Part shown: in pieces, positions 2 to 2,136 of the stretch
Layout of the letters: each line of letters begins with the position of its first letter
Position numbering within the stretch: the stretch's first letter is position 1
Assembly (NCBI GenBank): GCA_007695365.1
Contig: REDV01000063.1
Location: forward strand, 1-37,362
Direction: 5' to 3'
DNA length: 37,362 bases
Source: Cryomorphaceae bacterium
Lineage (GTDB): Bacteria; Bacteroidota; Bacteroidia; Flavobacteriales_D; SKUL01
Notes under the pieces: model-generated
Database searches by the model: none
What the model was told of the DNA's origin: nothing
Seen by the model: the letters and a program-made list of their open reading frames with translations, nothing else
Translations under genes and position numbers: made by a program

Positions 2-55
2 AAAAAGTACCCGGAGCGGGAATCGAACCCGCACGGCCGCAATGGCCACAGGATT
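2..55. repeat. Left direct repeat (att-like), truncated tRNA-Leu copy
   Basis: This 54-bp sequence is identical to 2046-2099. Read on the minus strand, positions 55-8 match nucleotides 38-85 of the tRNA-Leu gene, from just after the anticodon to the discriminator base, and positions 7-2 match the six bases after the mature 3' end. The match stops at position 56 (g, against t at 2100) and at position 1 (g, against c at 2045). The following sequence cannot form an anticodon stem or D arm, so this is not a functional tRNA gene. It is best read as the distal attachment site left by integration. Confidence 0.85.
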
Positions 56-180
56 GTAGGCTTACGTCTCACAGCAAACGACTGAAAAAATATAAAAGAA
101 CACTACAGTCAAATAAGTTCTGTGAAAATTGTTTGACCTGCCTCTATACAACACATCTTACAACGAGATTTGCGCATGGT

Positions 181-207
181 TTCTTGATGACCGTTGCCGG
201 TCAAGAA
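181..207. other. Imperfect hairpin in the islet leader
   Basis: The arms are ttctt (181-185) with aagaa (203-207), and gaccg (189-193) with cggtc (198-202). There is a 3-nt bulge (186-188) and a 4-nt loop (194-197). No T-run follows on the plus strand. It lies between the left repeat and the cargo promoter, so it could be a recombinase or regulator binding site or a remnant of an upstream transcript. Its function is unknown. Confidence 0.4.
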
Positions 208-280
208 GCGAATACAGACATTTAGGCGGGCTAATATCATGTTCCATCGAACTTATCCTTAGTTTTAACCGAGATATCAG

Positions 281-288
281 TACATTTG
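281..288 (+). promoter_or_regulatory. Bacteroidota -7 box for the islet cargo
   Basis: TACATTTG matches the Bacteroidota -7 consensus TAnnTTTG at every specified position. The expected transcription start is about 5-8 nt downstream, leaving a leader of about 15-18 nt before the ATG at 311. No clear TTG -33 element is seen at the usual 17-23 nt spacing. The placement implies that the small ORF and the dGTPase share one transcript. Confidence 0.6.
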
Positions 289-310
289 CAAAAGAACAAA
301 ACGCAGCACT

Positions 311-448
311 ATGGACAAATCAGCTAAAACACTAGAAGCGGTAAGGAATATTGCTATGAAGAAGGCATACTTGCCAAAAGAAATTAAGAAGTATGTTGTC
401 AAATCAAAGAGTGGCGGTAGTCTGACGATTAAGGTGTCAAAAAAGTAA
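311..448 (+). CDS. Small basic protein coupled to dGTPase (45 aa, unknown)
   Basis: This 45-codon ORF begins at ATG 311, just downstream of a good -7 box, and ends in TAA at 446-448. Its last base is the first base of the dGTPase ATG (TAATG), an arrangement typical of translational coupling. The product has 12 Lys and 1 Arg against 3 acidic residues, so it is strongly basic. It contains a short lysine-rich helix-like stretch and ends in KVSKK. No signal peptide, membrane segment or known motif is recognised. It could be a regulator or partner of the dGTPase, a nucleic-acid-binding peptide, or simply a leader ORF that controls translation of the next gene. Its existence as a protein rests on position and coupling alone. 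Confidence 0.6.
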   Translation: MDKSAKTLEAVRNIAMKKAYLPKEIKKYVVKSKSGGSLTIKVSKK

Positions 449-1977
449 TGTCTTTGTCTTTTTACCAAGAACTTGACTATTCTAGAGCACTAGCAGAACC
501 CGAGTCGGATTTAGAGCCAGAATACTACCGCAGCCAGTTTAGTCGAGACTATGCGCGCATATTGCATTCTCCTTCCTTCAGGAGATTACAAGGGAAAACG
601 CAATTATTTCCTGGAATAGAAAATGATTTCTTCAGAAACCGTCTCACACATTCGCTTGAAGTGGCTCAGATTGCGCGAGCGATAACACGACGAATTAATG
701 CGACCTGTAATGTAGGAGTGGATAACACAGGCGAAAAGAAAACTGCACACAAACAGCTTGACATAGATGAAGATTTAGTGTGTTTAGCTGCGTTAGCGCA
801 CGACCTCGGGCATCCACCTTTTGGTCATCAGGGCGAAGAAATCTTAGATGAACTGATGGTTGATTACGGAGGCTTTGAGGGGAATGCCCAAACGTTTAGA
901 ATATTATCCGTACTGGAAAAGAAGGTCTCTACGGACATAGGACCATCAGTCGACGAAGACCAGAGAATAGGATTGAACCTATGCGCACGGACATTGGCGT
1001 CCGTATTGAAATATGACAAGGACATCCCTTTTGACACTCGCTCCAGATTGAAGAGAATGAAGGAGGAAAATGCGAAAAAACGTGCATTAAAAAAAAATAT
1101 TAGACCTTATAAGGGTTACTATCAATGTGATGCGCGGAGAGTAAATGAAATTAAAGACAAAGTGGACCCATATGGGGTGGCTAAGCCGGGAAAGTTCAAG
1201 ACAATTGAATGTCAGATAATGGACATTGCAGATGACATAGCATACAGCACATTTGATCTAGAAGACGCATTGAAGGCTAAATTCATAAGCCCGTTAGATT
1301 TCCTTTTCCCAAAAGAAGAAATTCGAGAGAAGATAAGAAAAAAAGTGAACGAAGCCTTGGTAAAAGATGGTAGGAGAGGTGATTTGAGTGAAAGAGAAAT
1401 TCATGAAAAACTCCCAGAATTGTTTGTGCCATTGATGCTACCGCAAGAGCCGTTCGATGAATTAACACAAATTTCTGACGGAACGGAGATGAAAAAAATC
1501 TTCAAATATCTTTTTGAAACGTTGTACATCGGTGCCCAAGAAGTGCAAAACAATGGATATCACAGAATGTCTGCAACTTCGGGCTGGATAGGCCGGGCCA
1601 TCCGTTCAATTGAGTTTGAACCTAATGAAGAAAACTTGGCTCTTTCAACTGTCCGGTTGAGTAGAGACATGCGCATAAAGGTCGAAATATTGAAGCAGTT
1701 TACATTTCTCTGGCTGATAGACTCTCCTCGATTAAAAATAGCTGAGTACAGAGGAAAAGAAATTGTGAAAACCATATTTGAATCATTAGAAAAGAAAGGA
1801 GTCGGTGAGAAACTACTACCTGCTGACGTTCAAGAAGTGTTATCAAAGATGAAAGAGAAACCCAGTCAACAAAGGGTAATATGTGACTATGTTGCCTCAA
1901 TGACCGACAGGTACGCTATTGAATTCTATGCACGTCTAAAGTCTGAAAGGCCGGAGACAATTTTCAAACCTTTCTGA
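448..1977 (+). CDS. dgt: Deoxyguanosinetriphosphate triphosphohydrolase (dGTPase), HD family
   Basis: The 509-aa product hydrolyses dGTP, and possibly other dNTPs, to the nucleoside plus triphosphate. The HD-domain metal ligands are visible: H68 in RLTHSLEVAQ, H118-D119 in AHDLGHPPFGH, and an Asp in the later DIADDIAYSTFDLEDA motif. The family motif GFEGNAQTFR also follows, near residues 142-151. Length is close to E. coli Dgt (about 505 aa) and longer than many type 2 dGTPases. Codons are AT-richer than in the surrounding genes. The start is fixed by the TAATG overlap with the upstream 45-aa ORF. Some dGTPases of this family protect bacteria from phages by draining dGTP on infection. Location in a tRNA-anchored islet with no metabolic neighbours favours defence over housekeeping, but that is an inference; the enzyme family assignment is firm. 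Confidence 0.92.
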   Translation: MSLSFYQELDYSRALAEPESDLEPEYYRSQFSRDYARILHSPSFRRLQGKTQLFPGIENDFFRNRLTHSLEVAQIARAITRRINATCNVGVDNTGEKKTAHKQLDIDEDLVCLAALAHDLGHPPFGHQGEEILDELMVDYGGFEGNAQTFRILSVLEKKVSTDIGPSVDEDQRIGLNLCARTLASVLKYDKDIPFDTRSRLKRMKEENAKKRALKKNIRPYKGYYQCDARRVNEIKDKVDPYGVAKPGKFKTIECQIMDIADDIAYSTFDLEDALKAKFISPLDFLFPKEEIREKIRKKVNEALVKDGRRGDLSEREIHEKLPELFVPLMLPQEPFDELTQISDGTEMKKIFKYLFETLYIGAQEVQNNGYHRMSATSGWIGRAIRSIEFEPNEENLALSTVRLSRDMRIKVEILKQFTFLWLIDSPRLKIAEYRGKEIVKTIFESLEKKGVGEKLLPADVQEVLSKMKEKPSQQRVICDYVASMTDRYAIEFYARLKSERPETIFKPF

Positions 1978-2045
1978 TAATATTACATTATTGGGCGGGG
2001 CACAAAACCAACAACCAAAAAGTCCACTCGTTTATTCGAAAATCC

Positions 2046-2099
2046 AAAAAGTACCCGGAGCGGGAATCGAACCCGCACGGCCGCAATGGCCACAGGATT
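2046..2099. repeat. Right direct repeat (att-like), within tRNA-Leu
   Basis: This is the second copy of the 54-bp direct repeat. It covers the 3' part of the intact tRNA-Leu gene (2052-2099) and six bases beyond its mature end, including an A-run (a T-run on the tRNA strand). Recombination with the copy at 2-55 would delete the intervening 2.04 kb and leave the tRNA gene whole. Confidence 0.85.
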
Positions 2100-2136
2100 T
2101 TAAGTCCTGCGTGTCTACCTATTCCACCATCCGGGC
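2052..2136 (-). tRNA. tRNA-Leu (anticodon UAA)
   Basis: This 85-nt gene lies on the minus strand. The acceptor stem is GCCCGGA with TCCGGGT (one G-U pair). The anticodon stem CAGGA/TCCTG encloses loop CTTAAAA, with anticodon TAA at 2102-2100. A long variable arm typical of leucine tRNAs and a T arm with GGTTCGATTCC are present. The discriminator is A, and the 3' CCA is not encoded. A short T-run follows directly and may act as a weak terminator. The gene is intact, which is why insertion at its 3' end is tolerated. Confidence 0.95.

Follow-up and report, generated by a model that had tools for sequence, protein, structure and literature searches.

The window, that is, the whole 37,362-nucleotide stretch of DNA analysed here, is an entire contig (C63) of a 3.52-Mb Cryomorphaceae genome assembled in 154 contigs. 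It opens on a small AT-rich islet enclosed by two copies of a 54-bp direct repeat, the right one lying in an intact tRNA-Leu(UAA) gene. The features of the islet and its borders are as follows.

Position 1: left chromosomal flank, final base.
Positions 2-55: left repeat copy, att-like, 54 bp; a non-functional 3' part of tRNA-Leu, matching 2046-2099 exactly and also forming the end of contig C154.
Positions 22-28: first arm (ATCGAAC) of the 7-bp microhomology at which the congener's islet lost ~220 bp; the second arm lies at 246-252 (alignment with congener contig C355).
Positions 56-2045: islet DNA, 40.6% GC, with integrase and transfer genes absent (composition, ORF list and integrase HMM scan).
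Positions 246-310, plus strand: operon upstream region, 77% identical (50/65) to the congener.
Positions 311-448, plus strand: small protein ORF, 45 aa, candidate dGTPase partner (dN 0.019 and dS 1.19 against the congener; relatives located upstream of dGTPases).
Positions 448-1977, plus strand: dGTPase, an HD-domain dNTP triphosphohydrolase of 509 aa (TIGR01353, PF01966, PF13286, PADLOC, residues and fold).
Positions 2046-2099: right repeat copy, 54 bp, within the functional tRNA gene.
Positions 2051-2136, minus strand: intact tRNA-Leu(UAA), the putative insertion target (ARAGORN and Rfam RF00005).

The repeat is exact over 54 nt, and the bases bordering its two copies differ (g at 1 and c at 2045; G at 56 and T at 2100), giving 98% identity over 57 nt. 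The tRNA gene is called by ARAGORN and recognised by Rfam RF00005 at 60.7 bits. In the orientation of the tRNA, the base immediately 3' of the anticodon is the first of the repeat, which extends beyond the tRNA 3' end. When its 36-bp core was searched with up to three mismatches, the 3.5-Mb genome returned solely the two islet copies and the overlapping end of C154, with no additional att copy, and a reversed-pattern control gave 0 matches; the repeat is therefore not a product of chance.

The window begins at a contig end that lies on the repeat, a place where an assembler might join unrelated sequences. Such an artefact is extremely unlikely here, because the islet was assembled independently in the congener, where a single contig has the same gene order. 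Moreover, the first 55 bases of C63 are identical to the end of C154 (10 kb), which brings the left flank and whose last gene, encoding 165 aa, is the left neighbour of the islet. Contigs of this assembly overlap by 55 bases, and another such overlap is found at the right end of C63. The overlap and the left flank thus make the islet complete, at ~2.0 kb. A larger island clipped by the window edge was also considered and rejected, the left flank being given directly by C154 and by the congener. The vertex at which the contig breaks is precisely g plus the 54-bp repeat. With 55-base overlaps, a 54-bp repeat falls one base short of splitting the assembly graph by itself, so the reads may have contained a further junction, for example an empty site, an argument that is no more than suggestive.

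The GC content of the islet is 40.6%, against 51% in its neighbourhood, and its gene content is limited to the 45-aa ORF and the dGTPase, coupled through the overlapping stop and start codons TAATG. The integrase HMM scan of the window was empty, and the three tyrosine recombinases of the source genome are all encoded on contigs other than C63. Genes of phage satellites or tycheposons, including an integrase of their own, are likewise absent from the islet according to the ORF list and the integrase HMM, and its left 255 bp showed no match to plasmids. The earlier note had described an integrase-less, AT-rich islet of ~2 kb with one two-gene unit, bracketed by an exact att-like repeat starting next to the anticodon of an intact tRNA-Leu(UAA), and on all these points the description is borne out.

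The larger gene is readily assigned. TIGR01353 matches its product with 350.4 bits against a cut-off of 152.35, PF01966 and PF13286 score above their cut-offs, and the PADLOC dGTPase model gives a value of about 6.6e-122. The catalytic residues H68, H118, D119, D259, D262 and D263 are invariant in 22 relatives. In the AlphaFold model (pLDDT 82), the nearest folds are those of V. cholerae VC1979 and of the anti-phage dGTPase of Shewanella putrefaciens, followed by CloA, so the predicted structure agrees with the anti-phage type proposed in the earlier note. Furthermore, the neighbours of the gene in relatives are of the defence type, comprising type I restriction-modification (R-M) genes, an abortive-infection protein and a restriction endonuclease. 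The scores, the invariant residues, the fold and these neighbours make phage defence by dGTP depletion the most likely function, as judged from the family; no assay of any family member was found in the literature searched. A metabolic enzyme of the dNTP pool would be compatible with a superfamily that includes many housekeeping dGTPases, and with a score of 385.3 bits for the NCBIfam anti-phage dGTPase NF041026, which falls 15 bits below the strict cut-off of 400. This role is nevertheless quite unlikely in view of the defence-type neighbours, the PADLOC value and a distribution that is accessory and sporadic, over plasmids, prophages and islands.

Regarding the small ORF, it is found directly upstream of the dGTPase in nearly all relatives. 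Counting ATG-started ORFs of 42-90 aa only, it is present in 72 of 77 loci of the dGTPase subfamily, spanning many phyla; shuffled controls give 26% and displaced ones 29%. A blind HMM iteration started from the ORF of the window, run over the 10,199 ORFs of the loci (155 of which occupy the position upstream of a dGTPase), recovered nine matches, all nine directly upstream of a dGTPase. The family thus delineated, group A, occurs in Bacteroidota, Planctomycetota, Ignavibacteriota and Omnitrophota. The small ORF matched no family when searched in Pfam, NCBIfam, PADLOC, PHROGs, PDB and plasmids, and AlphaFold predicts a helix and a beta hairpin with low confidence (pLDDT 66, pTM 0.37). In the upstream region, the sequence TAnnTTTG at ~282-289 fits a Bacteroidota -7 element.

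An ORF placed immediately before the dGTPase, with overlapping stop and start and with a sequence that varies widely among lineages, might be a mere leader peptide tuning dGTPase translation. This is unlikely, since the protein is strongly conserved in the lineage of the window (dN/dS ~0.02), forms a recognisable family across the four phyla of group A, and is predicted to fold into the helix and hairpin, though at a pLDDT of just 66; distant anti-phage dGTPases, in turn, have no annotated small ORF. From its fixed position, its coupling and purifying selection, the small protein is instead regarded as a probable dedicated partner and, by analogy with CloB of the Clover system, it may restrain the dGTPase. 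No publication on a small dGTPase partner was found in a search that missed many subscription papers. A single origin of all the small-ORF groups was considered and set aside: groups B and C are related to each other (E ~1e-4), and a relationship of group A to the others was not demonstrable in sequence comparison. The small upstream ORF is absent from the annotation of three more distant plasmid dGTPases. Among viral contigs, five more distant dGTPases (L125, L131, L134, L135 and L140) are preceded by a different small ORF with a motif like A..AIQ..FERGRI, perhaps a second partner family.

Within the order, a full-length orthologue of the dGTPase was found in only two of 399 genomes, both of this genus, with weak partial matches in seven others. 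Relatives at 42-49% identity occur in Bacteroidota, Pseudomonadota, Planctomycetota, Spirochaetota, Ignavibacteriota, Acidobacteriota and other phyla, and are also found on plasmids and in viral contigs; in the dGTPase tree, the phyla are intermixed. The genus-restricted orthologue, the low GC content and the mixing of phyla in the tree together indicate a horizontal origin. The earlier note had named a pair conserved as a core locus as the contrary case: the pair is indeed widespread, but it is accessory, and the full-length orthologue is confined to this genus among the 399 genomes. On Rhizobium plasmids (L026:4930-7885 and L027:1-1482), the pair lies near genes for a PfkB-type kinase and a 7-cyano-7-deazaguanine synthase-like protein and near restriction genes, which perhaps constitute a further defence system.

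Within the family, the comparison was made with one other genome, that of the congener (G001). Its contig C355 carries the 165-aa gene, the islet, tRNA-Leu and hpt in the same order as in the window, and only 27 bp of its left repeat remain, because ~220 bp have been deleted between two ATCGAAC copies; the deletion stops right in front of the operon's upstream region. The dGTPases are 87% and the small proteins 96% identical between the two species. For the dGTPase, dS is 0.81, and for the small ORF 1.19, while three neighbouring genes have values of 0.42, 0.55 and 0.74; the islet genes are thus as diverged as core genes (0.81 vs 0.42-0.74). The dN/dS ratios, ~0.09 for the dGTPase and ~0.02 for the small ORF, indicate that both are working protein genes. 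The GC3 of the pair is 0.40, compared with 0.61-0.65 for the neighbours, in both species. In the window, ~250 bp between tRNA-Leu and hpt (2188-2420) are missing in the congener, and in other families of the order hpt is found without a tRNA neighbour.

The left repeat behaves differently from what is expected of a static islet. Lying outside a tRNA gene, it should have decayed if the islet had remained in place since the species split; however, none of its 54 bases in the window, and none of the 27 left in the congener, has changed. Non-coding identity between the species is 77% in the adjoining left-flank intergenic DNA and 62% at the right end of the islet. The probability of 0 changes in 54 ranges from 1e-5 to 1e-10 when derived from the dS values, and is ~6e-4 if the 23% difference of the left flank is used as the rate. 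The unmutated left repeats thus suggest that the islet integrated, or the repeat was homogenised, after the two species had separated, pointing to re-insertion or gene conversion; judged from sequence, the repeat appears too young for simple vertical descent since that split.

An old, single insertion in the ancestor of the genus, decayed to its cargo and inherited vertically, with gene conversion maintaining the left repeat, would account for the identical islet, position and flanks in the congener and for a dGTPase dS (0.81) resembling that of the neighbours. We regard this fixed state as doubtful, because the unchanged 54 and 27 bases would require efficient conversion limited to the repeat (otherwise P <=1e-5), and the GC3 of the pair is still distinct from that of its neighbours in both species. 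The contig break at base 1, with a repeat one base too short to cause it, is a further hint that the sample contained another junction. The earlier note had opposed to mobility the same dGTPase at the same place in all relatives with matching composition and phylogeny: the place is the same, in the one congener compared, whereas the composition is unlike that of the chromosome.

The gene pair is also found at other tRNA genes. Within the fetched flanks of 100 loci, exact direct repeats of at least 20 bp bracket the operon only in the congener and in three further loci (L051, L087 and L092), and all are tRNA-derived. In the latter three, the repeats are exact, 46-47 bp long, and start in the anticodon loop. 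The L051 element (Methylotenera), 5.6 kb long and located at tRNA-His, encodes a tyrosine integrase and a Rep_trans replication protein. That of L092 (Ramlibacter) measures 6.5 kb, lies at tRNA-Met and lacks an integrase, but carries HsdM, HsdS and an HsdR-like gene. In L087 (a Comamonadaceae MAG), the pair is the sole cargo of a 2.6-kb islet next to tRNA-Arg. For L087, the empty site is present in a relative (G415), where tRNA-Arg, with a single 3' end, runs directly into the same right flank. At 5599-5703 of L087 there is, in addition, a fossil tRNA-Phe 3' end with its terminator, 92% identical over 97 bp to Polaromonas L066, in which the pair lies directly beside tRNA-Phe; this fossil end suggests that the unit has moved between tRNA genes. 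In relatives of L092, the left flank and tRNA-Met are kept without the cargo, and the right flank is not conserved. It is also observed that the type I R-M genes of L092 (1177-5430) are enclosed together with the dGTPase pair by the 47-bp tRNA-Met repeats.

Across the loci, 16 of 17 tRNAs have their 3' end toward the pair (p 1.4e-4) and seven of 17 lie at most 700 bp from it (p 0.004), both p-values being approximate because some loci are related. About 75% of the relatives of the pair have no tRNA within 6 kb, and an integrase is found near the pair in only six of the 100 loci. No larger ancestor of the window islet was found; an integrase-bearing form of the pair is known in Methylotenera (L051). 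The mobility put forward in the earlier note is therefore supported for this type of unit, by the empty site of L087 in G415, the use of several tRNAs and the unmutated repeats; at the tRNA-Leu locus of the window itself, neither an empty site nor an excised circle was seen.

Taken together, the islet is probably an att-flanked, integrase-less element, similar to a cis-mobilizable element (CIME), integrated site-specifically at tRNA-Leu(UAA) and carrying a two-gene dGTPase defence unit. A tyrosine recombinase would cross over in the anticodon loop, restoring the tRNA and leaving the 54-bp repeat; it may act in trans, or a former integrase may have been lost later, both fitting equally well. 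The cargo would be expressed as one operon, with translation of the 45-aa protein passing into that of the HD-domain dGTPase via the overlapping stop and start. In infected cells, as judged from its family, the enzyme would split dGTP into deoxyguanosine and triphosphate and starve phage DNA replication, the small protein most likely holding it off or tuning its triggering. Frequent re-integration could then explain a left repeat that postdates the separation of the two species. More tentatively, and at somewhat less than even chances, the pair may represent a hitherto undescribed defence system of two genes, in which the small protein would inhibit the dGTPase or sense infection, and which would spread across phyla partly as integrase-less tRNA islets, passing from one tRNA gene to the next with recombinases borrowed from other elements.

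The control that keeps anti-phage dGTPases harmless before infection is known only for Clover (PMC12265719), and the fast-evolving small protein encoded just upstream in >90% of one dGTPase subfamily offers itself as an easily testable candidate for such control. As for the islets, they show that a defence operon can sit between att repeats without a recombinase of its own, and the empty site, together with the trace of hopping between tRNAs, offers a compact model for the travel of minimal defence cargo.

Compared with known systems, the dGTPase shares the HD domain, catalytic residues and fold with anti-phage dGTPases (Tal et al. 2022 as cited in PMC12265719; NF041026; PDB 9p8w), and like them it is accessory and often close to other defence genes. 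It is, however, only ~30% identical to those with annotated plasmid context, lies under the NF041026 cut-off, and has a small upstream partner ORF, which is not annotated for the three distant anti-phage dGTPases inspected. Clover consists of the dGTPase CloA and the nucleotidyltransferase CloB, which restrains the toxic CloA (PMC12265719). The pair resembles it as a two-gene unit of a dGTPase effector and a second gene, but has no nucleotidyltransferase, its partner measuring 45-75 aa, and CloA is 20-22% identical in the structural match.

CIMEs have lost their integration and transfer genes and kept attL and attR (PMC5704250). The islet likewise keeps att-like repeats at a tRNA target and has neither type of gene; unlike CIMEs, it is just 2 kb long with a single defence operon. 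CIMEs derive from an ICE or IME and are mobilised in cis after accretion; the likeness of the islet to them is one of anatomy. The Bacteroidota IMEs NBU1 and MTnPi4 also reside at tRNA-Leu (PMC5704250) and, judging from the repeat, share with the islet insertion at the tRNA-Leu 3' end by a tyrosine recombinase, but they carry their own recombinase, whereas the islet has none. With the defence hotspots of P2-like prophages and P4-like satellites (PMC9122126), the islet shares exchangeable defence cargo on integrated elements, and differs in that its att-bracketed unit is the cargo alone. Since CIMEs and Bacteroidota IMEs at tRNA-Leu are described (PMC5704250), the mobile form is already known; what is new, as far as the literature searched shows, is that this dGTPase subfamily has a small partner ORF and that it recurs in minimal islets at tRNA genes.
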